DNA of 64,000 nt, from the NCBI GenBank assembly GCA_026415395.1, contig JAOAHD010000007.1, forward strand, positions 496,001 through 560,000, written 5' to 3'. The DNA comes from Candidatus Binatia bacterium (GTDB taxonomy: Bacteria > Desulfobacterota > Binatia > HRBIN30). Below, piece by piece: positions 7,144 to 23,688 of the stretch (position 1 is its first letter; every line of letters begins with the position of its first letter). The position numbers were made by a program, and so were the translations under genes. The notes beneath the pieces were generated by a model. The model ran no database searches. It saw only the letters and a list, made by a program, of their open reading frames with translations, and was not told the origin of the DNA.

Positions 7144-8004
7144 CTACTCGCCCAGGTTCAACCCGAGCTGGCCCGTCAGGCGAATGGCAGCCGGTGGTTG
7201 CCCAAGCTTGCCGGTGGCATCGCCCTCGGTGCCCGGGTTTACGGGCTTTGAGGGTTCTGCTCCGGGCGCCACTCCGGCGGTCACCACTTTCTCGCTGGAC
7301 AAACGTGCGACTGCCGCACCCGAAGCCAGCGAAGCGGTTTGCACCAGCCCCTCGGGGCGACCGCGGCTGATAAAGTCGAAGCCTTCGATGCGCTCGCGCA
7401 GCAAGGGTTCGTCGAGCCGTCGCGGGCGCGTGGGCGGTCGATCTTCTTCGACCAGGGTCACCTCATGTGCAGTGACCAACACCCCAGGCGCTTGCGGATC
7501 GCGCAAACTGTGCACTTGCACACTGCCCTCGATGCCGATCACTTCGGTAAGTTGCGCAGCCGGGTCAAAGCGCACGGCGAATTCTGTGCCGCGCACGCCG
7601 GCAACTGCCGTTTCAGTACGAATTTCGTATGCGTTGCCCCGGCGGCGGTAGTATTCGCTAACTGCGGCGTTCACCTTACCGCGCAGCAAACCGAACAAAG
7701 AACGTGCCTCACCGGCCCCAGCGTCGAACACGTTTTCATCCACCGTCACGCGGGAGTTCTCGGCCAGAATCAGCACGCTGTCATCCTGAAACACGACGCG
7801 AAGTTTCCCGTCCGTGCCCGTGACCAGGATGTCGCCGACGGCCACCGGGTTACCAATCGCCGCAGGAATTTGCTGCCCGCTTCGATCGATGTGCACCTCG
7901 CCGCTGACCGCCGCAATCGTCCCCACCTCGCTCATGCTAGCGTGCGCCACGCCACAGCAGAAGAACACAAGCGTTATGAACGTGCCCACTCCCGGTCGAC
8001 TCAT
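7144..8004 (-). CDS. Secreted FecR-domain protein
   Basis: A 286-residue exported protein: signal peptide (cleavage near VAHAS, residue 23), then a FecR domain at about 30-165 (GEVHIDRSGQQIPAAIGNPVAVGDILVTG, split by the usual glycines, and TAVAGVRGTEFAV), followed by a Pro/Gly-rich tail with no recognisable fold. Unlike anti-sigma FecR proteins it has no cytoplasmic N-terminal domain or internal membrane helix, so it more likely acts in the periplasm as a ligand- or envelope-binding module. ATG 8004 begins one base after the stop of the TPR-barrel gene, with GAGG placed inside the end of that gene, so the two are translationally coupled. The third gene of this operon. Confidence 0.85.
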   Translation of the reverse strand: MSRPGVGTFITLVFFCCGVAHASMSEVGTIAAVSGEVHIDRSGQQIPAAIGNPVAVGDILVTGTDGKLRVVFQDDSVLILAENSRVTVDENVFDAGAGEARSLFGLLRGKVNAAVSEYYRRRGNAYEIRTETAVAGVRGTEFAVRFDPAAQLTEVIGIEGSVQVHSLRDPQAPGVLVTAHEVTLVEEDRPPTRPRRLDEPLLRERIEGFDFISRGRPEGLVQTASLASGAAVARLSSEKVVTAGVAPGAEPSKPVNPGTEGDATGKLGQPPAAIRLTGQLGLNLGE

Positions 8005-8005
8005 C

Positions 8006-9550
8006 TTAGTACCTCGCTTCGATTGTGATCGATCCAATGTGCCGCTCGTACTCGAACAATTTTTCCTCGCGCAAACCGATGAGCTGCGTAGAGTTCGTGA
8101 AGTTCAGTTGGCCGAAGTAAGCGGCAGTGACACTAATATGACCGGTGAGGGCCCGGCGAGCAAGCAAAATTATGCGGTGCTCTTGGTCTTTCCGGTTGTT
8201 GCTCGGCTCGCGCTCGTACACCTTGTGGCGAAAGGCGTAGTCGAATTGGGTTTCGACAGACCACGGCAAAGCCCAGGCCAAGCCAGCGCCAATCTGGTTT
8301 GCCGTATACGCGAAGGCGCGTGAGGCGCGACCAGGAGCGGTGTCCTCCACTTCGAAGAAATAAGAAACGGTCAGGTACCGCTGCCGGTTGCTTTGTAGGA
8401 AGAAGACTTGTGCGGCACCGGGGACGTAATTGATCGAGTCACGAATGTGGAACTCTGGTTTTAAGAAGTCTCGCCGGCGCAGTTGGAAGGAAAGCTCGGT
8501 CCAACCGAGATTCCCTTCGTCGATCCGTGCAAAGGGCAGGAGACTACCTTCGCGTAAGAAGTCGTCGGTGTCGAGCAAGTAATAGTCGTACCGGCCGAGG
8601 GCACCCCACTCTCCCCATTTGCGGCGGTCCGTATAGGCCACTTGCGCGCGGTGGTCTTGGAGGTCGAACGGCCGCAGTTCAAAGTGCAGGCTTTGGTAAA
8701 ATTCATAGCCTGCGGCCAACTGTGCGGTGGGCGTCCGCGCGATTTGGTAGGAGCCGCCAAACTGGAAGGTGGCACGCCCGTCGGCCTGACGGGTAACTCC
8801 TACGTCGCTCTTGGCGAAACTTGCGCCGAAATCGCTGGAGGGTGCGAGAATGACGTTGCTGTCGTACTGCAGGCCGAGGCTGCCGAACAACGTCCACCGC
8901 TCCCGCTCGATCTCGGCGATGCGCGCGAGGAACTGCTGCGATTGCTCGGCGACCGGAGTGCCAGGTTTGAGTTCGCGGACCCGCTCGAACTCTCGTTTCG
9001 CCCGCTGCCAAAATCCCTGCTGGTAATCCAGTACCCCGAGGTGATAGCGGGCAACGGCTTCGAGTTCGGGATCCTTCTCCAGTGCAGCCCAGAAGTAAGA
9101 GCGGGCCTCGTGAGCGCGATCGAGGCGGAAGAGGGCGATGCCAAGGTACAACAGCGCTTGAGCTTCGAGCTCCGCAGCGTTGCGCGCGTACTCGAGCGGT
9201 TGGATGGCCTTGCTGAACTCTCCGGCTTCTGCCAACGCGATCCCTAGGTCCAGTGCGGCATCGAAGAGCTTCGGATTCAACTCCCACGCTTTGCGCAGGG
9301 CCTGGATCGCCGCCGCACGGTCACCGGTGCGACTCAGCGCCACGCCTCGGTAGTACCACGCGAGGGCATCGAGCGGATCGGCTTCCACGGCATCGCCGAA
9401 CGACTTGAGTGCTTCTTGCAATTGGCCTGCGTGAAATTCCACCAAGCCCTTATTGTACAGGCGTTTGGAGCGTTCGCTTCCGCCGCTCGGAGAAACCAGG
9501 GCAGCAATCGCTGCCAACACCACCGCCACCCAACCAGACAGTTTCTTCAC
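8006..9550 (-). CDS. TPR plus outer-membrane beta-barrel protein (Slam-like architecture)
   Basis: A 514-residue exported protein. After a signal peptide (residues 1-24) come about five tetratricopeptide repeats (29-215), for example a repeat ending in [20 protein letters not shown]. The rest (about 225-514) alternates aromatic and polar residues with short turns, and the chain ends in EARY, an aromatic C-terminus typical of beta-barrels inserted by BamA. N-terminal TPRs joined to a C-terminal barrel is the layout of Slam/DUF560 proteins, which move lipoproteins to the cell surface. I infer only architectural likeness, not homology. The start is GTG 9550, overlapping the TGA of the upstream lipoprotein gene by 4 bases (GTGA). 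Confidence 0.75.
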
Positions 9551-11748
9551 CGTCGTACTCCAATGGCGATGTCGACCGGTGTAACGCCGACGCCGAAGAT
9601 CGCCGTCGCTAACAAGTCACGAGGGACATCGATCACGCTCACGCTATTGGTGAACGAGTTTGTGACATAAACGAACGTGCCGTCTGGACGGATTGCTAAC
9701 GAAGTCGGTTCTGAGCCGACCGGAATGCGTGCCCGTAAGGTCAACGTGGCCGTATCCACCACAGCGACTTCGTTTGAGCCACGACTGACCACGTAGGCGA
9801 CCGTTCCATCCGGTGTTACGGCGACCGATTGCGGTGAACGCCCCACGGATACACGACCGACCGTCTCCGGCGTGGCGAGTTCGACCACGGTCAGTGAATT
9901 GTCTCCGCCGTTGGCAATGTAAAGGCGTGCATCGTCAGGCGACACGGCAACATCTTGCGGCCGCGACCCAGCCGGGACGAATCCGAGCGTTGAGCCCGCT
10001 GGAACGGCGATGATGCGCACACGATTGTCGAATTGTTCGGCGACAAAGGCGCGCGCCGATCTTTGATCGAATGCCACGCTAGTCGGCATGAACCCCACGG
10101 GCGCCTCGGCCACGACCCGCAGGGTCGATCGCTCGATAATGCTGAGCGACCCACTCAGTTGGTTTACCACGGCAATCCAGCGGTCGTCCGGCGAAACCTG
10201 GAGAGCGTTGGGACGCGAACCTACCGCAACCGTGGCTGCAAGGCGGCCCGAATCGAGATCGATCGCCGAGATCTGATTGGCGAACTGATTTGCAACGTAG
10301 GCCCAGCGAGCATCGGCACTGAGGGCGATGGCTGTCGGGTAGTCGCCGGCGGGGATGCTGCCGATCAGCCGATTGGTTGCCGTATCGATCACCGCCAGCG
10401 ACGCATCGTTCAAGTTCGCGACATAAGCCAGCGTTCGCGGCTCTGGGGTAGGAGATGGGGTCGGTGTCGAGCTTGCAGTCGCGGTTGCAGTCAGCGTTGG
10501 CGTTGCCGTCGGGGTAGACGTGGGGCTCGGAGTGGCTGTGGACGTGGGAGTCTCCGTCGGTGTGGCGGTAGGAGTGAGGGTGGAGGTCGGGGTTGCCGTA
10601 GGAGTTGATGTGGGTGTGTTCGTCCAAGTGGTGGTCGCGGTTTGTGTCGGCGTTTGTGTGGGGGTCTCTGTTGGCGTCGTTGTGGGTGTGTTCGTGGGTG
10701 TAAACGTGGGGGTGCTGGTTGGGGTGAAAGTGGGAGTCGACGAGGACGTCGCTGTTCGGGTTGGCGTTGAAGTAGCGGTGTACGTGGGGCTGGCCGTTGG
10801 AGTAACGGTGGGCGTGGGAGTCGTAGTCGCTGTTGGGCTAGAGGTCGGCGTTGGCGTGCCGGGGGTCACTTGGAAGGAATACGTAAAGTCGACTGTTCGA
10901 GGGTTTGCCCCGGTTGTGCTCGCATTCACGCGCAGGCTGCCCGCGCCCCCCGTGCTGGTGTGCCAGACGCCAGTGCCCCAGTAACCGCGCACGCCCAAAT
11001 TGGGCTGAGTGCTGCACGGAGAAGCCGAGGTATCGTCGCAGGCCTCCCACGACATCGGCAGAACGTTGGAGGCACCACCCGCAGATGCAACGACGCGGAG
11101 GCTTGCGAGGGCGATCTCGTTGGCGGCATCAGCCACGAGCACTTCTACCTGGACGGGTGCAACCGCAGTGCTCCCGGGGCGCGGGGAGAACGGAAGCACG
11201 AATGGTTGGGCGAGCATCGAAATCACCCCCGAGCCGCTGCGGCTACCGGCAAGGATGTGCACCTTAGTCGGGCGACTTTCGTAGGTCGGAGCTGCCGGCC
11301 GATCGTTCGCGCATGCTGTTCCGATGCCCGGCGGATCGGTGCCGCAGATGTTCGGGGAGGCGAGCCCAGGTGGTGCAGGTGCAAATTGCTCCGCAAACGT
11401 GGCCAACTGCACGGTTGCCTCGCCTTCGGCCAGCGCATCGAGCACGAGTATCCTCGACCCAGTGACAGGGTCGGCGGGAACGTCGCCCGGCTGCACTGCC
11501 AGACAACAGTTGCGATTTGCTGCGTCTGTCACCACCACGCGCACGGTGACCGCCGCCTTCGGTAGGCGAGAAGCAAAGCTGCCATCCGCCTGTTCCCACT
11601 GCGCTTGCACAGCAAGGCGTCCTACGTTGGGCGACGGCTGGCCGTTCCCTCCTCCGGAGCAGCTTGCGGCCGCAAGTGCGACGGCAAGCACGCCGGCGCG
11701 CATGAGCCACCCGATTGGCCCCGTTTCGATCTTCGACCTCCCACCCAT
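9547..11748 (-). CDS. Lipoprotein with Thr-Pro linker and YVTN-type seven-bladed beta-propeller
   Basis: First gene of the coupled trio. The 733-residue product begins with a lipoprotein signal peptide ending in LAAASC (Cys30). It has an N-terminal beta-rich region (30-295) of Ig/Big-like character, a 140-residue Thr/Pro/Ser linker (about 295-437), and a C-terminal propeller of seven roughly 42-residue blades (437-733) with repeated YVAN, VSPD and VAVVDTAT elements, typical of surface-layer YVTN proteins. The frame is open to 12180, but only Met 11748 (or 11703) gives a proper signal peptide. The stop overlaps the next start by 4 bases. Likely an envelope-anchored, perhaps surface-exposed, binding protein of unknown ligand. 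Confidence 0.82.
10440..10860 (-). repeat. Low-complexity Thr-Pro coding repeat
   Basis: About 420 bases encode degenerate PT, TPT, TPTxTPT units in the lipoprotein above. On the plus strand the tract is almost purely G/T with few A or C (units like GTnGGnGTnGG), a very strong strand asymmetry. Such linkers are extended, probably O-glycosylatable spacers that hold a domain away from the membrane. Confidence 0.85.
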
Positions 11749-12355
11749 GGACAAGCCCTTGAACCCCGGCTCCCAAACCTCGTGCTCGGCTTTAGAACGG
11801 CCTGGCGTGCAAGTAAAGCAGATTTTCGCCACCAGCATGAAAAGTCCCTCCGCGGGCTCGGCCCCGTCGCAACCACCGCGAGTGGCCGCCTGTGGGTAAT
11901 CTTGTCGTCCTCTCGAACGGTTCTCGCGATTCACGCAGGTTGGCCAATTGGGTTCGCAGACTTGCGGCGGAAAATTTCTCTTGGGGCAGCTCGCCGAGCC
12001 CGCGCGGAGATCGCGTGCCCGCCGGTTGGAAGAACGAGCATACTCACCGCTCCAAGCAGGTGGTGCCGGGTATAATCGCGCCGGCGGGTGAGCCGGGGGG
12101 AAGGTCGGCCGTGAAGCGAGCGTTGCCGCTCGCTGGGGAGACAGGAGACCGCTCGGCGAGCGAAGCACCTGCAGTTCCATGCTCCGCGAATCTAAAAGCT
12201 AGTTGCGAGTCGGGCCTTGGCGTGTTGTGCACCGCGCCATCACAGGAGAGCTCCGGCTATTTTTCATCACCAATACTTTTTCTGCTTTTAGAGGAATTCC
12301 AACTGGGACTTGTTGCACGAACGATGGTGTTCTGACTAAAAGGCGCGCTTGCCGC
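11749..12355. other. Divergent control region between lipoprotein operon and respiratory operon
   Basis: This 600-base gap must hold the promoters of the leftward lipoprotein operon and the rightward actA operon. Open frames cross it (the lipoprotein frame stays open to 12180) without protein-like content. An AT-rich patch at about 12255-12300, unusual for this window, is the best place for the actA promoter. No box could be fixed by eye. Confidence 0.4.
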
Positions 12356-13015
12356 ATGTCACAGATCTTCCATCGAAGTGCAAACGCGCTGGCGCGCGCA
12401 ACAATATTTGGTGCTGTGTTTGTGATCGGACTGCTCGGTTACGCGGGCATGCTGCTCAATCGCTCCGGGTATGTCACCGGCGCGCACGTAGCCATCGAGC
12501 AGCCGGTGCCGTTTAGCCACAAGCACCACGCGAACGAGCTCGGGATTGATTGCCGGTATTGCCACACCACGGTCGAGGTTTCTGCTTCGGCCGGCATTCC
12601 GCCGACGAAAACTTGCATGAATTGTCACGCCCAAATTTGGGCAGACAGTCCCACTTTGGAACCCGTGCGGGCGAGTTTTCGCACCGACCAGTCGATTCCA
12701 TGGATCAAGGTGCACGACTTACCGGATTTTGTGTACTTCGACCACAGTATCCACGTGGCTAAGGGAATTGGCTGCGCGAGCTGTCACGGTCGGATCGACC
12801 AGATGAATCTCACTTGGCAGGAAAACTCCTTACAAATGGAGTGGTGCCTCAATTGCCACCGGCACCCTGAGCAATTCATTCGGCCCAAGGAAGAAGTCTT
12901 CAACATGGCGTACAAGGTGCCGGCGCGCACTCAGGAGGAGTTGGGGGTTCGTCTGGTATCGCAATACCAGGTCCACAAAGAGCAGCTCACGAATTGTTCC
13001 ATCTGCCACCGGTGA
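12356..13015 (+). CDS. actA: Alternative complex III pentaheme cytochrome subunit ActA
   Basis: Pentaheme c-type cytochrome of alternative complex III, the quinol:electron-acceptor oxidoreductase that replaces cytochrome bc1. The 219-residue product has one N-terminal membrane anchor (about 17-34) and exactly five CxxCH sites at residues 66-70, 87-91, 140-144, 164-168 and 214-218, the number known for ActA. The remaining chain faces the periplasm and passes electrons towards the monoheme subunit or the oxidase. ATG 12356 is the only start that places the anchor at the N-terminus; the SD is weak. It is the first gene of a 12-gene respiratory operon, six bases before actB. Confidence 0.93.
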   Translation: MSQIFHRSANALARATIFGAVFVIGLLGYAGMLLNRSGYVTGAHVAIEQPVPFSHKHHANELGIDCRYCHTTVEVSASAGIPPTKTCMNCHAQIWADSPTLEPVRASFRTDQSIPWIKVHDLPDFVYFDHSIHVAKGIGCASCHGRIDQMNLTWQENSLQMEWCLNCHRHPEQFIRPKEEVFNMAYKVPARTQEELGVRLVSQYQVHKEQLTNCSICHR

Positions 13016-13021
13016 TTGAGA

Positions 13022-16000
13022 ATGAAGGACGAGAGCCAAGACCATTCCGCGCTTGCATCCGGGGAATTTCCACCTGAAGCACCCGCCTACGATTGGGAAG
13101 CACTGCGCGCCAAGCTCGCTGCGGCTACCGGCCGGCGATACTGGCGCAGTTTGGAAGAGCTTGCTGACAGCGAGGGCTTTCGGGCGTTTTTGGAAGCCGA
13201 GTTTCCACGGCAGGCGTCGGTGCTTGATGCTTTAGGGCGGCGACAGTTCCTGCAGCTGATGGGTGCTTCGCTCGGCCTCGCAGGCCTGAGTGCGTGCACG
13301 AAACAACCGGTCGAGAAAATCTATCCTTATGTAAAAGCGCCGGAAGAGGTCGTGCCGGGGCAGCCGTTATACTTTGCCACCGCGCTCCCGCTCAGTGGTT
13401 TTGGCCGCGGTGTTTTAGTGGAAAGCCACATGGGCCGCCCGACAAAGATTGAGGGTAACCCGGACCACCCTGCGAGCCTCGGTGCGACAGACATCTTTGC
13501 GCAAGCCGATATCCTCACCTTGTACGACCCCGATCGTTCGCAAGCAGTGCGGTTTGGCGGCGTGATTCGTCCGTGGCAGGCGTTCGTGGACGCTGCGCAA
13601 CGCGAGTTCGAGCGCCTCAATGGGAAACGCGGCGCGGGCTTTCGGATTTTGACGGAAACGGTGACGTCGCCGTCGCTCCTCGCGGAAATTCACCGGTTGC
13701 TTGCTGCCTGGCCCGAGGCGCGCTGGCATCATTTCGAACCAGTGAACCGCGACCACGCTCATGCCGGCGCCAAAGCGGCGTTTGGGGAGGTGGTCGACGC
13801 AGTTTACAACGTAGAAGCGGCCGATGTGGTGCTTTGTGTGGAGGCCGACCTGCTCGGGCCGCACCCAGGTGGCGTGAGGTACGCGCGGGAATTCGCCCGG
13901 CGGCGCAAGGTGGATGACGGCAACGACCGCCAGATGAACCGGCTGTACGTTGTGGAGTCGGCACCTAGCATCACAGGTTCGGTGGCCGACCATCGCTTGG
14001 CTTTGCGGCCGAGCGAGTGCGAAGCGTTTTTGCGTGCCCTCGCGGGGGCCTTGGGTTTGCCGGTGCAAACGCCGGCGAGCATGGAGCCGCGCCGTGCGTT
14101 CATTGTCGCATTAGCGAAGGACCTCGCGCGCAGCCGCGGAAAAAGCTTGGTGGTGGTGGGCGAAGCGCTTGGGCCCACGGCGCACGCGCTGGCGTACGCA
14201 ATCAATGAGTCGCTCGGGAACATCGGCGAGACGGTATCGTTCGTCGAGCCCATCGCGCCGCACCCAGAGCTGCAGCTCGAGTCACTCCAATCGCTGGTGG
14301 CCGATATGGATGCTGGCAAGGTGGAGGTGCTCGTCATCCTCGGCGGTAATCCTGTGTACACGGCACCGGCAGACCTGAAGTTCGGGGAACGGCTGCAAAA
14401 GGTGGGACTGCGGATCCGCCTCGGGTTGTACGAGGACGAAACTTCACTGTTTTGTCACTGGCACATTCCGGAAGCGCATGTATTGGAGTCGTGGGGCGAC
14501 ATTCGAGCGCACGATGGCACGGTGACGCTGATTCAGCCGCTCATCGCGCCTCTGTATGACGGCAAGACGGCGTTCGAAGTGCTCGCGGCGTTCAGCAGTA
14601 AGCCCAGCCGCAAACCGTACGATGCGGTTCGCGAATATTGGAAAGGCGTGTGGAGCGGTGCGGATTTCGAAGCCCAGTGGCGGCGTGCCTTGCACGATGG
14701 TGTGGTGCCGGGCAGCGGGGCGGCAGTGCGCCCGGTGACGTTGCGGAGCGATTTCTTCCAAAACTTGCGCCCACCTGTGGCTGCGCCGGCGGGGCTGGAG
14801 ATTGTGCTGCGTCCGGATCCGACAGTTTACGACGGCCGCTACGCGAACAACGGCTGGTTGCAAGAGCTGCCCAAGCCGCTCACCAAGCTCACGTGGGACA
14901 ATGTGGCGTACGTGGCTCCGGCAACGGCCGCGCGCCTCGGGTTGAAGAACGGCGATGTCGTCGAGGTGGTGGCGGAAGACCGCCGCGTGGACGCTCCGGT
15001 TTGGATTCAGCCGGGTCAGGCCCACGACACCGTGTTGCTCCACTGGGGCTATGGGCGCCCGCGAGCCGGTCGTGTAGGCGGCGGAATTGGCGTCGATGCC
15101 TTTAGACTTTGTTCCTCGCGTGCCCCCTGGGGCATGGCTGGCGGAGAGATACGGAAGACGGGGCGGCGTTACCGCTTGGCCTGCACGCAGGATCACTTTA
15201 GCCTCGAAGGGCGAGATATCCTGCGCAAAGGCACCCTAGAAGAGTACCGGCACGATCCGTCGCTCGCGCCTCATGGCCACGGAGGCCACAAAGGAGAACT
15301 CCCCTCGATGTATCCGGGCTTCCCGTACACTGGGTACGCGTGGGCCATGTCCATCGACTTAAATGCGTGCATTGGTTGCGGCGCGTGCACGATTGCTTGC
15401 GTGGCCGAGAACAACATCGCGGTGGTTGGCAAGGATCAGGTGGCGCGCGGGCGCGAAATGCATTGGATCCGGGTGGATCGGTACTACGAGGGCGATCTGG
15501 ATGCTCCGGAGTTTGTCCACCAGCCAATTCCGTGTCAGCAGTGCGAAAATGCCCCCTGCGAGTTGGTCTGCCCCGTGAACGCGACGGTGCACAGTGCCGA
15601 GGGCCTGAACGACATGGTGTACAACCGCTGCGTGGGCACCAAGTACTGCGCGAACAACTGCCCGTACAAGGTTCGGCGATTCAATTTCTACCTGTACCAA
15701 GATTGGTATACCGAGAGCTTGAAGCTGTTGCGCAACCCGGATGTGACTGTACGCAGCCGCGGCGTGATGGAAAAGTGCACGTACTGTGTACAGCGCATCA
15801 ATGCGGCGCGAATCCAAGCCAAACGCGAGGGACGCAGCATTCGCGACGGGGAAATCCTCACAGCGTGCCAACAAGTTTGTCCCACTGAGGCAATTGTATT
15901 CGGCGATATGAACGATGCGGAAAGCCGCGTGGCAAAGTTGCGTCAATTGCCGCGCACGTACCAGTTGCTCGAAGAACTGAACACGCGCCCGCGCACAACA

Positions 16001-16060
16001 TACTTGGCGGCGGTTCGCAACCCAAACCCAGAACTCAGCTCAGGAAAGGGTCACGCATGA
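13022..16060 (+). CDS. actB: Alternative complex III subunit ActB (molybdopterin-like plus 4Fe-4S fusion)
   Basis: ActB is the large peripheral subunit of alternative complex III. The 1012-residue chain starts with a cytoplasmic-type segment, then a Tat-like signal (RRQFLQLMGASLGLAG, residues 73-88) followed by a Cys. The middle is a complex-iron-sulfur-molybdoenzyme fold that in this family lacks the cofactor. The C-terminal ferredoxin-like domain (about 780-970) holds CIGCGACTIAC, CQQCENAPCELVC, CVGTKYCANNC and CTYC-plus-CQQVC motifs for up to four iron-sulfur clusters. ATG 13022 is chosen over TTG 13016, which abuts the actA stop. The stop overlaps actC by 4 bases. Confidence 0.94.
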   Translation: MKDESQDHSALASGEFPPEAPAYDWEALRAKLAAATGRRYWRSLEELADSEGFRAFLEAEFPRQASVLDALGRRQFLQLMGASLGLAGLSACTKQPVEKIYPYVKAPEEVVPGQPLYFATALPLSGFGRGVLVESHMGRPTKIEGNPDHPASLGATDIFAQADILTLYDPDRSQAVRFGGVIRPWQAFVDAAQREFERLNGKRGAGFRILTETVTSPSLLAEIHRLLAAWPEARWHHFEPVNRDHAHAGAKAAFGEVVDAVYNVEAADVVLCVEADLLGPHPGGVRYAREFARRRKVDDGNDRQMNRLYVVESAPSITGSVADHRLALRPSECEAFLRALAGALGLPVQTPASMEPRRAFIVALAKDLARSRGKSLVVVGEALGPTAHALAYAINESLGNIGETVSFVEPIAPHPELQLESLQSLVADMDAGKVEVLVILGGNPVYTAPADLKFGERLQKVGLRIRLGLYEDETSLFCHWHIPEAHVLESWGDIRAHDGTVTLIQPLIAPLYDGKTAFEVLAAFSSKPSRKPYDAVREYWKGVWSGADFEAQWRRALHDGVVPGSGAAVRPVTLRSDFFQNLRPPVAAPAGLEIVLRPDPTVYDGRYANNGWLQELPKPLTKLTWDNVAYVAPATAARLGLKNGDVVEVVAEDRRVDAPVWIQPGQAHDTVLLHWGYGRPRAGRVGGGIGVDAFRLCSSRAPWGMAGGEIRKTGRRYRLACTQDHFSLEGRDILRKGTLEEYRHDPSLAPHGHGGHKGELPSMYPGFPYTGYAWAMSIDLNACIGCGACTIACVAENNIAVVGKDQVARGREMHWIRVDRYYEGDLDAPEFVHQPIPCQQCENAPCELVCPVNATVHSAEGLNDMVYNRCVGTKYCANNCPYKVRRFNFYLYQDWYTESLKLLRNPDVTVRSRGVMEKCTYCVQRINAARIQAKREGRSIRDGEILTACQQVCPTEAIVFGDMNDAESRVAKLRQLPRTYQLLEELNTRPRTTYLAAVRNPNPELSSGKGHA

Positions 16061-17421
16061 GCGCCCCAGCACGCGATCTCGGGCCGATCATTGGCCCAGG
16101 CCATACGTTCGAAACCGTTACAGATAAAATTGCGGCCGTCGTGCTCTCCGAGACCCGGCGCGGCTGGATGCTCGGGTTCGGTGTGTCGTTCGTGTTGTTG
16201 ACGATTTTTTTGCAGTGCGTGGCCGTGTTGTTGGTCCGCGGTATCGGCATCTGGGGTATCAACATCCCAGTCGGTTGGGGTTTCGACATTATAAACTTTG
16301 TTTGGTGGATCGGGATTGGACACGCCGGGACCTTGATCTCGGCCATTTTGCTCCTGTTCCGGCAAACCTGGCGGACCTCCATTAACCGATTCGCGGAAGC
16401 CATGACGTTGTTTGCTGTCGCCTGCGCCGGATTGTACCCAATCCTGCACTTGGGGCGCCCGTGGTTGTTTTACTGGCTATTGCCGTACCCTAACGCCATG
16501 GGGATGTGGCCCAACTTCCGCAGCCCGTTGATGTGGGACGTGTTTGCGGTGTCGACCTACGCCACCGTTTCGGCGCTGTTTTGGTTCGTGGGGCTGATCC
16601 CCGACTTGGCCACACTTCGCGATCGCTCCACGAGCAAGGTTGGGCGGGTGATCTACGGAATCCTGGCGATGGGCTGGCGCGGCTCGGCGCGGCACTGGAA
16701 CCGGTATGAAACGGCGTACCTCCTGTTGGCGGGTCTTTCGACGCCTCTGGTGGTTTCCGTGCACAGCGTGGTGTCGTTTGACTTTGCGGTCGGCATTATT
16801 CCGGGTTGGCACGCGACCATTTTTCCTCCGTATTTCGTGGCGGGAGCGATTTACGCCGGGTTTGCCATGGTGCTGACGCTGACGATTCCGCTGCGCCGTT
16901 ACTATGGACTCGAGGATTTCATCACCATGCGCCACATCAACTACATGGCGCGGGTGATGCTCGCCACCGGCTTGGTGGTCGCATACGGGTACTTCATGGA
17001 AATTTTCATGGCCTGGTATAGCGGTAACCCTTTCGAGGAGTTCATGGTGAAGAACCGACTCACCGGGCCTTATCAGACTTTGTATTTCGCGCTCATCCTC
17101 ACCAACGTGGTTATTCCGCAGTTGCTCTGGTTCCAACGCGTGCGGACGAACATTCCGCTGCTCTTTATGGTGGCGATGTCGATCAACATCGGGATGTGGC
17201 TCGAGCGATACGTCATCATCGTGGTGAGCTTGCACCGCGACTTCCTGCCTTCCTCGTGGGGCATGTATGCTGGAACGATTTTCGACTACGGCACATTCAT
17301 CGGGACCATTGGTTTGTTCTTGACTCTGCTGTTCCTGTTCATTCGGCTGTTGCCGATGATCTCCATCTTTGAGATGCGGACGCTTTTGCCTGAAGCCAAG
17401 GTGAAGGAGAAGCACGCATGA
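16057..17421 (+). CDS. actC: Alternative complex III membrane subunit ActC (NrfD-like)
   Basis: Polytopic NrfD/PsrC-family protein of 454 residues with about ten hydrophobic helices, one of two quinol-binding membrane subunits of alternative complex III. Visible family segments include WWIGIGHAGTLISAILLL, LGRPWLFYWLLPYPN and the long run of helices to FLFIRLLPMISIFEMR. It overlaps actB by an ATGA and actD by another ATGA, which indicates stoichiometric, coupled translation. The N-terminal 40 residues are soluble, as in other ActC proteins. Confidence 0.93.
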   Translation: MSAPARDLGPIIGPGHTFETVTDKIAAVVLSETRRGWMLGFGVSFVLLTIFLQCVAVLLVRGIGIWGINIPVGWGFDIINFVWWIGIGHAGTLISAILLLFRQTWRTSINRFAEAMTLFAVACAGLYPILHLGRPWLFYWLLPYPNAMGMWPNFRSPLMWDVFAVSTYATVSALFWFVGLIPDLATLRDRSTSKVGRVIYGILAMGWRGSARHWNRYETAYLLLAGLSTPLVVSVHSVVSFDFAVGIIPGWHATIFPPYFVAGAIYAGFAMVLTLTIPLRRYYGLEDFITMRHINYMARVMLATGLVVAYGYFMEIFMAWYSGNPFEEFMVKNRLTGPYQTLYFALILTNVVIPQLLWFQRVRTNIPLLFMVAMSINIGMWLERYVIIVVSLHRDFLPSSWGMYAGTIFDYGTFIGTIGLFLTLLFLFIRLLPMISIFEMRTLLPEAKVKEKHA

Positions 17422-17957
17422 CGGCGCGTGTCCCGCTGTATGGCTTGATGGTGGAATTTGCCGACGTGAACCACCTGGTTGCGGCCATACGGAAGCTGCG
17501 CCAAATGGGCTACCGGCGCATGGATGCATTCACTCCCTTCCCCGTCGAGGAGGTGTGGGAGGAACTGGGCATTCACCGCAACATGGTGTCGTTCTTGGTG
17601 TTTTGCGGCGGCCTCGCAGGTGCCTTGTTCGGCATCGGCTTGCAGTACTGGACTTCGGTGATTGATTACCCGATCAACGTCGGTGGTCGCCCACTCTTCA
17701 GTGTTCCGGCGTTCGTGCCGGTGACTTTCGAGTGCACAGTGCTGTTTGCCGCCCTCACCGCAGTGCTCGGCATGCTAGCGTTGAACGGCCTTCCAGCCCC
17801 GTACCATCCAGTGTTTAACGTGCCGCGGTTTGCGCTGGCATCGCGTGACCGGTTCTTCCTGTTGGTCGAGAGTACGGACCCGCTGTTCGACCGCGAGGGT
17901 ACGCGACGGGTCTTAGAATCTTTGTCACCTGTTTCTCTTGCCGAGGTGCCGGACTGA
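17418..17957 (+). CDS. actD: Alternative complex III subunit ActD (DUF3341)
   Basis: A 179-residue membrane protein matching the DUF3341 family: an N-terminal soluble ferredoxin-like part that begins YGLMVEFADVNHLVAAIRKL and includes GYRRMDAFTPFPVEE, then two transmembrane helices (about 55-75 and 95-120) separated by a periplasmic loop containing the conserved NVGGRPLFSVPAFVP. ActD packs against ActC and ActF in known structures of the complex. Overlaps actC by 4 bases and touches actE by one base. Confidence 0.92.
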   Translation: MTARVPLYGLMVEFADVNHLVAAIRKLRQMGYRRMDAFTPFPVEEVWEELGIHRNMVSFLVFCGGLAGALFGIGLQYWTSVIDYPINVGGRPLFSVPAFVPVTFECTVLFAALTAVLGMLALNGLPAPYHPVFNVPRFALASRDRFFLLVESTDPLFDREGTRRVLESLSPVSLAEVPD

Positions 17958-18580
17958 TGACCGCACACAGACTCCGCTGGAGCTGCGCCTTGGGATTGGT
18001 GGGGGCGCTCTTATTCTCCGCCGGCTGTCGCCGGGACATGCAGGATCAGCCGAAGTACAAGGGATTTCGCCCGAGCGAGTTTTTCGCCGATGGTCGTTCG
18101 GTGCGGCCGCTAGTCCCAGGCACTGTGGCGCGGGGCCATTTGCACGATGACACCCTGCTGTACACCGGCAAGATTGGCGAGAACTTCAGCCCTGAGTTTC
18201 CGTTTCCGGTCACGCGAGCCGTTCTCCAGCGGGGGCAAGAGCGATACAACATTTATTGCTCGCCGTGCCACGACCGAGTTGGCACTGGCAATGGAATGAT
18301 CGTGCAGCGTGGCTATAAGCAGCCCCCGTCTTTCCACCAGGATCGTTTGCGCCAGCAGCCGCCGGGTTATTTCTTTCACGTGATTGGCAATGGCTTCGGT
18401 GTGATGCCCGACTACGCAGCGCAGATTCCCGTGCGCGACCGTTGGGCAATTGTGGCTTACATCCGTGCATTGCAACTGAGCCAACACGCAACCTTGGCGG
18501 ACATTCCTGAAGCGGATCGGCCGAAGCTCGACCAAGCCGCACCGACCACGAAGTCTAAGGCAGGAAATTCCCATGAGTAA
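17957..18580 (+). CDS. actE: Alternative complex III monoheme cytochrome c lipoprotein ActE
   Basis: Periplasmic monoheme cytochrome c anchored as a lipoprotein: signal peptide with lipobox FSAGC (Cys24), one heme site CSPCH (residues 101-105) and an axial Met candidate in GFGVMPDY (Met150). ActE is thought to carry electrons from the ActA hemes to the terminal oxidase. Here a caa3-type oxidase with its own cytochrome domain follows, so direct transfer within a supercomplex is plausible. Its last 8 bases overlap the actF start. Confidence 0.92.
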   Translation: MTAHRLRWSCALGLVGALLFSAGCRRDMQDQPKYKGFRPSEFFADGRSVRPLVPGTVARGHLHDDTLLYTGKIGENFSPEFPFPVTRAVLQRGQERYNIYCSPCHDRVGTGNGMIVQRGYKQPPSFHQDRLRQQPPGYFFHVIGNGFGVMPDYAAQIPVRDRWAIVAYIRALQLSQHATLADIPEADRPKLDQAAPTTKSKAGNSHE

Positions 18581-19766
18581 CGCTATCCCGGATCGCAGTC
18601 GATTCCTGTTGCGCGACGACCACCCACTGGCACGTTTGCGGCCTGTCGCGTTAGGCGTGGGGGCAGTCGGTCTGCTAGTCTCGGTGGCGGGTGCCTTGAT
18701 CGACACTACCCAGTTCTTCCATTCGTACCTGTTCGGCTTTTTGTTTTGGTTCGGAATCGCGATGGGTTCGTTGGCATTGCTGATGATTTACCACGTGACG
18801 GGTGGTGCCTGGGGATCCGTGATCCGGCGGAGCCTGGAATCGGCGGTGCGGACGATCCCGTTGCTCGCAGTGCTGTTTGTGCCCGTCGTGGTTGGTGTGC
18901 ACTCTCTCTACGAATGGGCGGATGCTGCCAAAGTAGCGCACGACCCGCTTCTGCAACACAAGAGCGTGTATCTGAATGTGCCGTTTTTCGTCGGTCGCGC
19001 CGTTCTGTACTTTGTCGTGTGGACTCTGTTGGCAAACTTTTTATCCCGTTGGTCGGAGGCGCAGGAGAACGGCGAGCCGAGGGCCATCGGTTGGTTGGAA
19101 AACCTCAGTCGCGGTGGTCTCGTAGCGCTGGGACTGACTTTCACCTTCGCGGCGGTCGACTGGGCGATGTCACTGGAGCCTCACTGGTACTCTACGCTGT
19201 ACGGGGTGCTGGTGATGGGCGGCTGCCTCCTGAGTGCCATGGCATTCATGATCAAGGTCACAGCCCTGCTGGCTGACGATGGACCGCTCAGTGGCGTCGT
19301 GCAACCGATGCAGTTTCACGACCTCGGCAAGCTCATGTTCGCCTTCGTGATGCTGTGGGCGTATTTCTCCTTGTCGCAGTTGCTCATCATTTGGTCGGGC
19401 AATTTGCCGGAGGAGACGCCTTGGTATCTCAAGCGGATGAGCGGCGGGTGGCAGTACGTGGGCTTGTGCCTGATCTTGTTCCACTTTGCCCTTCCATTCG
19501 TGATTTTGTTGTCGCGCGATATCAAACGGAGCGCACGACTGGTTTCCCGAGTGGCCCTGTTCATCCTCTGTGTGCGGGTGATCGAGGTGTATTGGTTGAT
19601 CACGCCGGCGTTTTCCCCGCACTACGCGCGGGTTCACTGGCTCGATGTCACGACCTGGCTCGGTGTCGGCGGAGTATGGCTGTGGGCATTCACGGGAGGA
19701 TTGCGCGGTCGGCCACTCATCGTATGGAATGACCCATCGCTGCCCGCTGCAGGAGGTCACTCATGA
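18573..19766 (+). CDS. actF: Alternative complex III membrane subunit ActF (NrfD-like)
   Basis: Second polytopic subunit of alternative complex III, 397 residues with about ten helices, a paralogue of ActC. Family segments include FHSYLFGFLFWFGIAMGSLALL near the N-terminus, HPLLxHK-type loop residues (HDPLLQHK), and MLWAYFSLSQLLIIWSGNLPEE in the middle. Together with ActC it forms the membrane core. The gene overlaps both neighbours (8 bases with actE, 4 bases with the next small gene). Confidence 0.92.
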   Translation: MSNAIPDRSRFLLRDDHPLARLRPVALGVGAVGLLVSVAGALIDTTQFFHSYLFGFLFWFGIAMGSLALLMIYHVTGGAWGSVIRRSLESAVRTIPLLAVLFVPVVVGVHSLYEWADAAKVAHDPLLQHKSVYLNVPFFVGRAVLYFVVWTLLANFLSRWSEAQENGEPRAIGWLENLSRGGLVALGLTFTFAAVDWAMSLEPHWYSTLYGVLVMGGCLLSAMAFMIKVTALLADDGPLSGVVQPMQFHDLGKLMFAFVMLWAYFSLSQLLIIWSGNLPEETPWYLKRMSGGWQYVGLCLILFHFALPFVILLSRDIKRSARLVSRVALFILCVRVIEVYWLITPAFSPHYARVHWLDVTTWLGVGGVWLWAFTGGLRGRPLIVWNDPSLPAAGGHS

Positions 19767-20170
19767 GCCATCCACAGACGGGAAGCGCCGGCCATACTGC
19801 GGGCGCCCACGAAACGCGAGACCTACCGAGCCGCCCGATCGTGGTGACGATCGTTGGGGGCGTGGTGGTCACGGTCGCGATTTTTGCGGCCTTGTACGTC
19901 TTCACGGCGGCATTGGAGCGTTATGTGCAACACACATCGCCGCCGCCGAATCCACTCGCTGGGGTGGTGCCGAAGGAACCGCCGGCACCGCGGCTTCAAC
20001 CCGCACCCATCAAGGATTTGCAGGAACTGCGGGCATGGGAAGATAGCCAACTGCACCACTACGGTTGGGTGGACAAGGCAAACGGTATCGTGCGCATTCC
20101 GATCGAACGAGCGATCGACCTGTTGGCAGAAAAAGGATTGCCGGCGCGACCGGAGGAGCCACAACCATGA
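19763..20170 (+). CDS. Small single-pass membrane protein of the ACIII-caa3 operon
   Basis: A 135-residue protein of unknown function. It has a polar N-terminus, one transmembrane helix at about 27-50, a Pro-rich stretch (NPLAGVVPKEPPAPRLQP), and a C-terminal part with the segment HHYGWVDKANGIVRIPIERA, which I recall as a recurring motif of small proteins encoded beside actF or cox genes in several phyla. The helix is followed by a periplasmic domain. Starts and stops overlap with actF and sco by 4 bases each, so it is almost certainly made with the complex. It may be an accessory subunit comparable to ActG or an assembly factor. Confidence 0.75.
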   Translation: MSHPQTGSAGHTAGAHETRDLPSRPIVVTIVGGVVVTVAIFAALYVFTAALERYVQHTSPPPNPLAGVVPKEPPAPRLQPAPIKDLQELRAWEDSQLHHYGWVDKANGIVRIPIERAIDLLAEKGLPARPEEPQP

Positions 20171-21030
20171 GCCTTCGTGGAGTGGTGGTCACGGTTGCCG
20201 TATTTGCGGTGGCGGGTAGTGCTGCCGCGACTCGCTTACCCGGACCGGCCGGGGAAGGCACAGGAGCAACCCCGATTCTCCAAAAGGTGGATTTCGAGCA
20301 GCGCTTAGGTACCCAAGTGCCTTTGGATTTGATGTTCCGCGACGAAAGTGGTCAGACAGTTCGGCTGGGTGACTACTTTCAAGGAAAGCCGGTGGTACTC
20401 ACGCTTTCCTATTACGAATGTCCGATGTTGTGCACGCTCGTGCTGAATGGGCTTGTGAGCGCTCTGCGAGCGTTGCGCTTCGATCTCGGAAAGGAATTCG
20501 TCGCGATCAATGTTTCGTTCAACCCGCGAGAATCTGCTGAACTCGCCGCCGCCAAGAAGGCAACCTATTTGAAGGAGTACCGCCGCTCAGGTGCGGAAGC
20601 TGGTTGGCACTTCCTTACGGGCGGGGAGGCGGCAATCCAGCGCCTCACCGAGGCAGTGGGGTTCCGGTATGCGTGGGACGAGAAGAATCAGCAGTATGCA
20701 CACGCAACCGGTCTAGTGGTGTTGACGCCGGGGGGCCAAATTGCCCGGTATTTTTATGGCGTGGAATTTTCGCCGCGGGACTTGCGCTTTGCCCTGATCG
20801 AAGCGGCTGAAGGAAAAATCGGCTCACCGGTGGATAAGCTCCTGCTTTACTGTTTTCACTACGATCCAGCCACCGGCCGTTACAGCGCAATCGCCCTGAA
20901 TTCGATTCGCATCGGTGGAGCGATTACGGTGCTGGCTCTTGCCACCTTCATTATCGTGATGTTGCGGCGCGAGCGTCGTGCTGGGGTAGTGGGTGGGCAC
21001 TCGTGGGCCGGGGGCGGAGCGTCATCTTGA
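20167..21030 (+). CDS. SCO1/SenC-family copper chaperone
   Basis: Thioredoxin-fold copper chaperone that metallates the CuA centre of cytochrome c oxidase subunit II. The 287-residue product has an N-terminal signal peptide, the copper-binding CPMLC motif (Cys85, Cys89) after the LTLSYYE strand, a conserved His in AHATGLVVLTPGG, and an unusual C-terminal transmembrane helix (IGGAITVLALATFIIVML) with a basic stop-transfer end, so it is membrane-tethered at the C-terminus. ATG 20167 overlaps the previous stop by 4 bases; an earlier in-frame start lies inside that gene and is rejected. It precedes ctaC by 26 bases. Confidence 0.9.
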   Translation: MSLRGVVVTVAVFAVAGSAAATRLPGPAGEGTGATPILQKVDFEQRLGTQVPLDLMFRDESGQTVRLGDYFQGKPVVLTLSYYECPMLCTLVLNGLVSALRALRFDLGKEFVAINVSFNPRESAELAAAKKATYLKEYRRSGAEAGWHFLTGGEAAIQRLTEAVGFRYAWDEKNQQYAHATGLVVLTPGGQIARYFYGVEFSPRDLRFALIEAAEGKIGSPVDKLLLYCFHYDPATGRYSAIALNSIRIGGAITVLALATFIIVMLRRERRAGVVGGHSWAGGGASS

Positions 21031-21056
21031 TTTCAAACGTGGAGTAGCGACCAAGC

Positions 21057-22043
21057 ATGGCTTCGAACTTTGCTCTCTTTCCAGAACGTGCATCGACGGT
21101 GGCTGGCGAAGTCGATGCGTTGTATCTGTTCTTAGTTGCGGTGAGCGGTTTCTTTGCCGTGCTCATCGCCGCGTTGGTCGTAGTGTTTGCGATTCGCTAC
21201 CGCCGCCGCAGCGAGGATGAACGTCCGGCCGCAATTCATGGTTCGCTCGCCCTCGAACTGGCGTGGACAATTATCCCCTTCGGCTTGGCCATGATCATGT
21301 TCTTTTGGGGGGCGAAGGTTTACATCACGCTCGCGGTGCCACCGCCGGACGCCATGGAAGTGTTCGTGGTGGGGAAACAATGGATGTGGAAGCTGCAACA
21401 CCTCGAAGGGAAGCGCGAAATCAACGAGCTGCACGTGCCAGTTGGACAGCCGATTAAGCTGACGATGACCTCGGAAGACGTCATCCACAGCTTCTACATT
21501 CCCGCGTTCCGAATCAAACAAGACGCCATCCCGGGCCGCTACACCACGGCTTGGTTCGAAGCGACGAAAACGGGAACCTACCATTTGTTCTGTGCCGAGT
21601 ATTGCGGCACAGAACACGCCAAAATGATCGGCCGGATCGTCGTGATGGAACCGGCCGAGTATGAAGCTTGGCTTTCCGGAGCGACAACCACCGCGGTTGC
21701 GGCAGTGCCGGCTGCAAAACCAGAGGATCAGCAGGCGGCGATGGCCCAGGCCGGGGCGGAGTTATTCAAAAAGCTCGGCTGTGTGAGTTGCCACCGTGCG
21801 CAGGCGGGAGCCTTGGGTCCTTCCCTTGCAGGTCTTTTTGGTCACAATGTGTCCCTGCAAGATGGCAGCACGGTGGTGGCAGACGAAGATTACATTCGCG
21901 AGTCGATCCTGAACCCGCAGGCGAAAATTGTTGCCGGTTACCAGCCGATCATGCCGACGTTCAAGGGGCTGGTCAACGAAGAGCAGTTGATGCAGCTCAT
22001 CGCGTACATCAAAACCGGGAAGGCTGGGACGGAACTCCAGTGA
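21057..22043 (+). CDS. ctaC: Cytochrome c oxidase subunit II with fused cytochrome c (caa3 type)
   Basis: Electron-entry subunit of the aa3/caa3 oxidase. The 328-residue chain has two N-terminal helices (about 20-46 and 64-86), the cupredoxin domain with CuA ligands His144, Cys179, Cys183, His187 and Met190 (FCAEYCGTEHAKM), and a C-terminal cytochrome c domain with heme site CVSCH (242-246) and axial Met299 in IMPTFKG. The fused heme lets the oxidase accept electrons straight from alternative complex III without a mobile cytochrome. There is no Cys lipobox. Confidence 0.95.
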   Translation: MASNFALFPERASTVAGEVDALYLFLVAVSGFFAVLIAALVVVFAIRYRRRSEDERPAAIHGSLALELAWTIIPFGLAMIMFFWGAKVYITLAVPPPDAMEVFVVGKQWMWKLQHLEGKREINELHVPVGQPIKLTMTSEDVIHSFYIPAFRIKQDAIPGRYTTAWFEATKTGTYHLFCAEYCGTEHAKMIGRIVVMEPAEYEAWLSGATTTAVAAVPAAKPEDQQAAMAQAGAELFKKLGCVSCHRAQAGALGPSLAGLFGHNVSLQDGSTVVADEDYIRESILNPQAKIVAGYQPIMPTFKGLVNEEQLMQLIAYIKTGKAGTELQ

Positions 22044-22077
22044 TGCGCGGTCGGTGCGCAGTTAGGTGGTTTAGACC

Positions 22078-23688
22078 ATGAACGGCGTAGAAACTCGAAC
22101 CAATTACCTGAACGCGGAATACGGCTTGTTATCGTGGCTGCTCACGCGCGACCACAAACGGATCGCCATCCTTTATCTCATCTCCGTTACGATCATGTTT
22201 GCCATCGGCGGGCTGTTCGCGGCTGCCGTGCGCCTCGAGCTGCTGACGCCGCAAGGCGACCTCTTGGCTGCCGACACTTACAACAAGATGTTCTCCATGC
22301 ACGGCATCATCATGGTGTTTTTCTTTCTCCTGCCCGCCATACCAGCGACGTTGGGGAACTTCTTGATTCCCATGATGATCGGTGCGCGCGATCTCGCCTT
22401 CCCGAGGATCAATCTCCTGAGTTGGTACCTGTATGTGCTCGGCGCGCTCTTTGCGTTGTACGCGATGGTCACCGGCGGGGTGGACACGGGTTGGACCTTT
22501 TATACCCCGTTCAGCACCACGGCCTCGAACACCAACGTGGTGCCGACGGCCATTGGCATTTTCATTAACGGCTTCTCCGGGATCCTCACGGGGCTCAACT
22601 TTATCGTGACCATTCACCGCATGCGGGCGCCGGGCCTCACTTGGTTCCGTTTGCCCCTCTTCGTCTGGGCCCACTACGCCACGAGCCTGATCCAAGTCTT
22701 AGGCACGCCGGTGCTTGCCATTACCTTGGTCATGGTGGCGCTGGAGCGGGCTTTTCACTTCGGCATTTTCGATCCGAATTACGGTGGCGACCCGCTCCTG
22801 TTTCAGCACTTGTTCTGGTTCTACTCGCACCCCGCCGTCTACATCATGATCTTGCCGGCCATGGGCGTCATTAGCGAGTTGGTTACGTGCTTCTCCCGCA
22901 AGAGTATCTTCGGGTACAGTTTCGTGGCGTTGTCTTCGGTGGCCATCGCTGTGCTCGGTTTCCTAGTGTGGGCGCACCACATGTTTGTGACTGGGATGTC
23001 GGTGTATGCCGCCATGATCTTTTCCTTCATTAGCTTTGGCGTGGCCATCCCGTCGGCGGTGAAGGTGTTCAATTGGACCGCAACGCTCTACAAGGGTTCG
23101 GTCTCCTACGCGGCACCAATGTTGTACGCGTTGGGGTTCATTGGCTTGTTCACCATCGGCGGATTGACGGGATTGTTCCTGGCTACGCTGGGAGTGGATG
23201 TGCACGTGACCGACACGTACTTCGTCGTGGCACATTTCCACTATGTCATGGTGGGTGGAACCATCATGGCGTATCTCGGCGGGCTGCACTTTTGGTGGCC
23301 CAAAATGACCGGTCGGCTGTATCCGGAAATCTGGGCGCGCATTTCTGCGGCAATTGTGTTCCTGGGTTTCAATCTGACCTTCTTCCCGCAGTTTATTCTC
23401 GGCTACTTGGGGATGCCGCGGCGTTACCACGTGTATCCGGATGAGTTTCAGGTGCTGAATGTTCTCTCCACGGCGGGCGCGTCGATCCTCGGGGTGGGTT
23501 ATTTGTTGCCGTTTATTTACCTCGCTTGGTCCATGCGGTACGGCGAACAAGCCTCGCCGAATCCCTGGGGTGCAACTGGCTTGGAGTGGGAGACCCCATC
23601 ACCACCGCCGACGGAAAACTTCGAGACGCCGCCGGTGGTGACCCGCCCGGCTTACGCTTACGACTTGGAGGAGGTTGCCGTTGGCTAG
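22078..23688 (+). CDS. ctaD: Cytochrome c oxidase subunit I
   Basis: Catalytic heme-copper subunit, 536 residues with twelve transmembrane helices. Diagnostic segments are [17 protein letters not shown] (heme a ligand His), [19 protein letters not shown] (CuB His, cross-linked Tyr, and the Glu at the end of the D-channel in A1-type enzymes), WAHHMFVTG (two CuB His) and [12 protein letters not shown] (heme a and a3 His). It reduces oxygen to water and pumps protons. SD GGAGG-rich sequence at its own 3' end serves the next gene. Confidence 0.96.

Follow-up and report, generated by a model that had tools for sequence, protein, structure and literature searches.

A conserved lipoprotein, TPR-barrel and FecR gene set with distant likeness to Slam in a Binatia genome

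The window analysed here is a stretch of 64,000 nucleotides from a Candidatus Binatia bacterium (assembly GCA_026415395.1, 3.69 Mb; contig JAOAHD010000007.1, forward-strand positions 496,001 to 560,000). Between positions 7144 and 11748 its minus strand carries three closely joined genes, for a stalked lipoprotein, a protein combining tetratricopeptide repeats (TPRs) with a predicted outer-membrane barrel, and a secreted FecR-domain protein. Their features, with the basis of each assignment, are as follows; LIPON is our own name for the conserved N-terminal domain of the lipoprotein.

9547..11748, minus strand: lipoprotein coding sequence, 733 amino acids, with signal peptide and lipobox Cys30, N-terminal domain, Thr/Pro stalk and YVTN propeller
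11659..11661, minus strand: codon of the predicted lipidated Cys30 (lipobox-like LAAAS-C)
10873..11661, minus strand: LIPON domain, to residue 294 (alignment of 25 sequences, model, genome-wide linkage)
10444..10866, minus strand: Thr/Pro/Ser-rich stalk, residues 295-435, 141 residues (composition)
9550..10443, minus strand: YVTN-type beta-propeller head, the last 298 residues (TIGR02276, PF10282)
9547..9550, minus strand: 4-base overlap of the lipoprotein stop with the GTG start of the barrel gene (coordinates)
8006..9550, minus strand: TPR and outer-membrane barrel protein, 514 amino acids (TPR matches, AlphaFold model, Slam profile match)
8903..9475, minus strand: TPR region, residues 26-216, eleven helices (Pfam TPRs, model)
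8012..8896, minus strand: predicted barrel, residues 219-513, 14 strands by count (model; CymA Z 22.5, OmpG Z 20-21)
7144..8004, minus strand: FecR-domain protein, predicted secreted, 286 amino acids, ATG at 8004 (PF04773, 1.3e-14)
7519..7830, minus strand: FecR domain (PF04773, 1.3e-14)

A first-pass annotation, made from the sequence alone, had described three minus-strand genes joined by a 4-base overlap and a 1-base gap, and both its coordinates and its junctions are correct, the gap separating the barrel-gene stop from the FecR-gene ATG at 8004. Its account of the outer two products also stands. The lipoprotein has the lipobox-like Cys30, a stalk that is 81% Thr, Pro or Ser (67, 31 and 16 of 141 residues) and YVTN repeats matching TIGR02276 (E 1.1e-47) and Pfam Lactonase (PF10282; 1.4e-19), and the 286-residue FecR protein begins with what is, by eye, a hydrophobic leader. 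For the lipoprotein start we preferred the ATG at 11748 to the longer open reading frame (ORF) start at 12180, which gives an 877-residue open frame; the ORFs of both same-genus homologues begin with residues similar to those at 11748 (MGVGMGG..).

The middle protein had been read as TPRs followed by a barrel-like half ending in tyrosine, and an AlphaFold model built on 26 sequences (predicted local distance difference test, pLDDT, 91.0; predicted template-modelling score, pTM, 0.68) agrees: strong TPR matches lead into a barrel predicted with high confidence, and the C-terminal residue is Tyr514. The model lists 17 strand elements, which become 14 strands when 329-337 and 340-344 are counted as a single interrupted strand and the short pair 488-491/494-497 is omitted. 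By VIA-align the barrel superposes on the porins CymA (Z 22.5, r.m.s.d. 3.4, 279 residues) and OmpG, and the helices superpose on TPR proteins. Sequence matches in the Protein Data Bank (PDB), among those listed (60 of 135 and 60 of 202), fall in the TPR part, and no solved Slam is among the structure matches listed, an absence that excludes nothing.

Slam, the surface lipoprotein assembly modifier, joins an N-terminal TPR domain to a C-terminal 14-stranded barrel (excerpts of PMC5449769). We compared profiles of our barrel family with an alignment of 14 Slam proteins, 12 of them from plasmid records and annotated 'surface lipoprotein assembly modifier', the other two scoring above the PF04575 cut-off in a genome of the window's class. 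With 29 family members HHalign returned a probability of 99.6% over 387 columns, starting inside the TPRs and running to the C-terminal residue. Restricted to the barrel, the match stood at 97.7%, and in a second run at 97.8% for 29 near members and 99.1% for 26 diverse members; a reversed Slam profile gave 4.0 and 3.9%, and three column-shuffled profiles (of five made) gave at most 0.2%. An R-x-D motif in the barrel shows little or no variation in either family (R453/D455 in alignment A1, R395/D397 in A4). At equal depth, with whole open frames and three sequences on the Slam and BBP2_2 sides alike, five Slam triples matched the near members at 92, 91, 63, 78 and 84% and the diverse members at 98, 97, 98, 95 and 98%, over 207-274 columns, whereas three BBP2_2 proteins, matching in the barrel's second half, reached 42% over 87 columns and 92% over 154; an earlier BBP2_2 run, in which two of the three proteins were N-terminally shortened, had given 45% and 93%. 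This control narrows the gap between Slam and BBP2_2, and so lowers our confidence in a Slam-like reading and raises that in its BBP2 rival. Judged by these profiles, the barrel family is a distant homologue of Slam, closest to Slam among the families tested. We do not count it as a member, since two marks of membership, a score above the Pfam cut-off (for the window protein, TPR_Slam 18.4 bits against 35.2) and the cargo hallmark, are both absent; one relative (G008:C28) does exceed the PF04575 cut-off, at 30.2 bits against 22.

Slam-type genes themselves occur in the window's class, while the literature covered speaks of Proteobacteria: genome G036 has two in tandem (L082:1012-2361 and L082:2385-3776; PF04575, 90.3 and 85 bits), and the ORF upstream of them resembles Slam cargo by eye.

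The barrel family (E <= 1e-12) was found in 21 of 58 genomes, among them all 15 from the window's order, and the closest named relatives, Bacterium HR30 and a Candidatus Binatia metagenome-assembled genome (MAG), are 86% and 83% identical over the barrel. The near loci number 41 (the window plus L037-L076); in 40 of them a same-strand FecR gene follows the barrel gene, and L074 has none. Among 36 distant loci from named genomes, FecR adjoins the barrel gene in 22, a figure that includes five (L096-L100) which are contigs of near loci L039/L038, L040, L041 and L065; it is absent from 14, among them Myxococcota and alphaproteobacterial members and two loci that end at the barrel (L120, L125). 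The pair extends to Nitrospirota, Geobacteraceae and Mariprofundus, and in three Nitrospinota loci FecR lies upstream. The linkage is more than chance, for it persists where barrel identity to the window protein is down to about 30-50%. A second complete lipoprotein-barrel-FecR set lies in the window's own genome (L037; G000:C16:242000-258000), with a propeller head and a barrel 36% identical. The conserved synteny that the first-pass annotation proposed to look for in other Binatia is therefore found, and for barrel and FecR it extends beyond them; in the wider barrel family the barrel-FecR pair is not universal. Neither of the outcomes that the annotation had named as refuting it, a barrel-less model or unlinked genes, has occurred.

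Several observations adjoin these results. Barrel relatives in L115-L118, L121-L127, L129 and L131 (Myxococcota, alphaproteobacteria and others; L125 ends at the barrel) have no FecR neighbour, and in several FecR-less relatives a YDDN-like motif replaces YDSN. In the Nitrospinaceae/Nitrospinota loci (L101:4229-8251; also L104 and L105) the upstream FecR gene, 531 residues long in L101, is preceded in L101 by a gene for a cNMP-binding/PAS/GGDEF/EAL protein. The window's FecR protein also matches models for a LapA retention module (4.3e-7) and for Lsa33 (3.4e-15) and LipL45 (5.6e-12) of leptospires, all below their cut-offs.

LIPON, the first ~265 residues past the lipid cysteine, is common to the lipoproteins of 25 of the 41 near loci. 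No Pfam family was found for the window's copy, and at E<=1 no family matched more than two of the 25 members, the best E being 0.021. A model from five sequences is all-beta (pLDDT 82.3, pTM 0.80), and weak fold matches suggest two immunoglobulin (Ig)-like sandwiches, with Z 7.8 and 7.5 for the first half (Bacteroides 4qdg and 3gf8) and Z 8.6 for the second (Thermus sulfite dehydrogenase). Homology to solved folds was not adopted, the Foldseek and VIA-align matches being weak and treated as leads only. The LIPON gene lies upstream of the barrel gene in 22 of the 25 loci and downstream in 3. Across 58 related genomes we found 27 copies in 16, all of which carry the barrel; 25 of the copies, which are also the model's seeds, adjoin a barrel gene, and the other two open at contig ends. 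As seeds for this model and for VPNG (below) were picked beside barrels, only further genome-wide matches are independent evidence of linkage, and since at most the best 44 candidates per genome were scored for LIPON, and in some genomes 26 for the barrel, absences are not absolute. Distances between barrels correlate with those between LIPON domains (r 0.825, 0 of 2000 permutations, 21 of 25 loci), a correlation that shared descent alone could produce.

By eye, a lipobox-like cysteine precedes LIPON in 23 of the 25 members, L042 and L046 being the exceptions, and in L046 LIPON begins later in the protein. Past LIPON there is almost nothing, a short tail, or a stalk, most often rich in Thr/Pro or Thr/Ser, that bears a propeller, a beta-helix or an unrecognised head (nine of the 25 proteins were scanned with Pfam); in the window's lipoprotein, stalk and propeller make up all the rest. 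These lipoproteins pair a shared anchor-side domain with variable heads.

Elsewhere the lipoproteins are of other kinds. Exported proteins with a lipobox-like cysteine (mostly CGG or CGS) come after the barrel and FecR genes in the Nitrospirota loci and Mariprofundus; they have another N-terminal domain, and some carry Ig, fn3 or beta-helix parts. The Nitrospirota domain, which we call VPNG and whose match to LIPON (hhalign 22.6% over 22 columns) does not establish a relationship, gave 16 matches in 8 of 18 barrel-holding genomes. Of these, 13 share a contig with a nearby barrel gene, one sits at a contig start and two are unlinked. Seven of the 16 are seeds; of the nine others, six lie near a barrel, one runs from base 9 of its contig and two are unlinked. 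At three Geobacteraceae loci the upstream genes encode small CGGG proteins instead; at one of the three a gene for a 2455-residue YVTN-propeller protein (L106:629-7996) lies upstream of the barrel-FecR-CHASE2 genes, with a 171-residue CGGG lipoprotein in between. Barrel, FecR and a lipoprotein recur together though the lipoproteins differ.

Drawing on profiles, models and analogy, we tentatively propose, at a likelihood just short of even, that the gene set is a Slam-like (type 11 secretion-like) display module. After export and lipidation the lipoprotein would travel to the outer membrane; the barrel protein's periplasmic TPR domain would recognise LIPON; the barrel would let the lipoprotein reach the outer face; and the Thr/Pro stalk would hold the variable head, here a propeller, off the cell. 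Because the lipoproteins are conserved next to the lipid and variable at the far end, a gate that recognises a lipid-proximal domain and tolerates many heads would suit them. FecR, we infer, would be dedicated to the barrel protein as its periplasmic partner, whether chaperone, gate or reporter, and in lineages whose operon includes a CHASE2-cyclase it may relay the state of the gate to that enzyme. A more far-reaching version, which we hold to be doubtful, is an undescribed multi-phylum envelope-spanning system that comprises a Slam-like gate for stalked lipoproteins, a new lipid-proximal recognition domain and a secreted FecR protein that informs a CHASE2-cyclase about gate or cargo and thereby ties display to second-messenger signalling.

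The cyclase is also the starting point of the main rival, a trans-envelope sensor that can be combined with the display reading and that we regard as possible, if on balance improbable. Here the barrel would be a receptor, the stalked lipoprotein a surface ligand-binder and FecR a periplasmic relay, with an inner-membrane CHASE2-cyclase making the cytoplasmic signal and display a side effect or absent. CHASE2-guanylate cyclases are encoded downstream in Geobacteraceae and Nitrospirota, where Pfam recognises CHASE2 in L106 and L113; it also does so at the places of L043, L050, L056, L069 and L070. Our own model, built from four whole CHASE2-cyclase proteins, so that some of its matches may be cyclases without CHASE2, finds same-strand genes downstream in eight of the 41 near loci and nine of the 36 distant ones. 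Genome G009 has a tight four-gene set of lipoprotein, barrel, FecR and CHASE2 (L151), and CHASE2 occurs in 15 of 20 genomes: of the 16 that carry the barrel only G003 lacks it, and none of the four barrel-less genomes has it. A sensor has a precedent in the Burkholderia biofilm operon that encodes a LysM-FecR protein and a CHASE2 histidine kinase (excerpts of PMC5192318). The window's own CHASE2 gene, however, is on another contig among unrelated neighbours, with neither FecR nor barrel (L148), 33 of the 41 near loci have no nearby same-strand CHASE2 gene, and a sensor alone leaves the Slam profile match and the changing heads unexplained. The association, which like LIPON (visible only by comparison) does not figure in the first-pass annotation, leaves room for a signalling role.

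Several further results weigh against a Slam-like display module, and some of them favour simpler barrels. The window barrel matches no Pfam family at E<=1, neither SlipAM (PF04575) nor BBP2_2 (PF10082). Single-sequence scans recover BBP2_2 in 16 of 29 and 10 of 26 members (best E 1.4e-5 and 7.3e-7) and SlipAM in only 6 of 29 and 7 of 26 (2.9e-7 and 4.9e-7), and the BBP2_2 profile matches the diverse family at 92-93% over the second half. The protein might then be a plain BBP2-type outer-membrane protein that sits by chance in a conserved operon and transports no lipoprotein; we think this quite unlikely, as the equal-depth match spans 87-154 columns of the second half against 207-274 for the Slam triples, and the tight linkage to one lipoprotein domain would go unexplained. 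PF10082 exceeded its cut-off in none of 44 relative genomes at E<=1e-10, and neither it nor PF13609 yielded control barrels among relatives. In structure the barrel comes closest to the porins CymA and OmpG, and the first Foldseek match is the TPR-barrel cellulose exporter BcsC. A porin or a polymer exporter of the BcsC/PgaA kind, which would export polysaccharide while the lipoprotein and FecR served as accessory envelope proteins, is nonetheless the least probable of these readings: the BcsC match is poor (TM 0.35, rmsd 15.5), the flanking genes scanned include no glycosyltransferases, and the PgaA barrel has 16 strands (excerpts of PMC8406197) against 14 in our model.

The lipoproteins, too, hold points against the display module. 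A Pfam scan found no TbpB-type eight-stranded barrel in the window's lipoprotein, and the conserved part of this putative cargo is at its lipid end. L042 has no lipobox, and L045 has Asp right behind the lipid cysteine, which in E. coli is an inner-membrane retention signal. Sixteen of the 41 near loci have no LIPON lipoprotein; contig ends can explain L040, L050, L060, L061 and L070, but not all, L051, L058, L066 and L068 being examples that no contig end cuts. The parallel with Slam drawn in the first-pass annotation thus survives in part. End-to-end profile alignment and scattered SlipAM matches in relatives speak for the resemblance, but the window protein has no SlipAM match and BBP2_2 is commoner; a lipobox-protein gene does adjoin the barrel gene, but its product lacks the eight-stranded barrel of known cargo. 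In 5 of the 12 named Slam loci the gene directly upstream is annotated as TbpB-like or as a Slam-dependent lipoprotein, the same order as in the window.

The large flanking genes scanned encode PNPase, an M16 peptidase, a hydrolase, a cytochrome and respiratory subunits. On the plus strand alongside lie genes for a cytochrome, an iron-sulfur/molybdopterin-type protein and an NrfD protein, with COX1 further off, so that the gene set looks like a unit of its own. The divergent respiratory set (12203-23688; its cytochrome of c7/c3 type) is, we presume, alternative complex III with an oxidase. An Rfam scan of the window gave no match, and promoter and terminator scans gave a signal no better than chance, or below.

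The gene set is real and conserved, and within the literature covered (subscription papers and preprints lay outside it) we did not find it in print; it is Slam-like, with a different type of cargo and a FecR partner. That literature yielded no paper joining FecR, CHASE2 and tetratricopeptide, and among the matches listed (15 of 46 and 15 of 29) no title placing FecR in a Slam system, which also counts against the display module; the main text of a 2025 paper on type 11 secretion system (T11SS) cargo mentions neither FecR nor CHASE2, and that of a 2021 T11SS paper does not mention FecR. What is new is the FecR linkage, the LIPON domain, for which Pfam has no name, with its variable stalks and heads, and the presence of a CHASE2-cyclase in the sets of several lineages.

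Among known barrels, BBP2_2 (PF10082), CymA and OmpG belong to the same general outer-membrane class, and for CymA and OmpG the superposition takes in the whole barrel (Z about 20-22). They differ in that the aligned CymA and OmpG chains are barrel only, without TPRs, and the BBP2_2 profile match is limited to the second half and shorter than Slam's. The combination of an outer-membrane barrel with a FecR domain recalls FecA-FecR-FecI cell-surface signalling, in which an outer-membrane barrel acts with a periplasmic FecR domain and a gene for the cognate extracytoplasmic function (ECF) sigma factor stands beside fecR. Unlike in FecR/FecI, no sigma factor was found among the large flanking genes scanned (small ORFs between them were outside the scan), and the barrel protein here has TPRs and does not register as a TonB-dependent receptor. 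The Burkholderia operon likewise encodes an extracytoplasmic FecR protein with a CHASE2 sensor protein, but its components, in the excerpts of PMC5192318, are LysM-FecR and a histidine kinase, where those here are a cyclase, a TPR barrel and a lipoprotein.

Slam (DUF560; SlipAM, PF04575; type 11 secretion) is the nearest system, sharing periplasmic TPRs followed by a 14-stranded barrel (predicted here), a collinear profile match to the C-terminus and a lipobox protein encoded next door, mostly upstream. In excerpts of the literature, Slam1 is the translocon for TbpB, aided by the chaperone Skp (PMC9090332), known cargo share an eight-stranded C-terminal barrel (PMC5449769, PMC8406197), and the C-terminus is proposed to target Slam-type cargo for secretion (PMC8406197). 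The family described here differs in a window barrel below Pfam recognition, a FecR gene next in 40 of 41 near loci, a putative cargo conserved at its N-terminal end, opposite to the end proposed to target Slam-type cargo, and an occurrence in Binatia, Nitrospirota and Geobacteraceae, among others. The route of lipoproteins to the outside of the outer membrane has been solved for few systems, and the Slam-type literature covered centres on Proteobacteria and eight-stranded-barrel cargo; a 2025 cargo survey, in the excerpts of PMC12282271, describes a distant Slam cluster that is rarely beside such cargo and for which other targeting domains are possible. LIPON, with a putative gate adjoining, a near-constant FecR gene and a link to a cyclase, is a concrete candidate for an alternative targeting domain of that kind.

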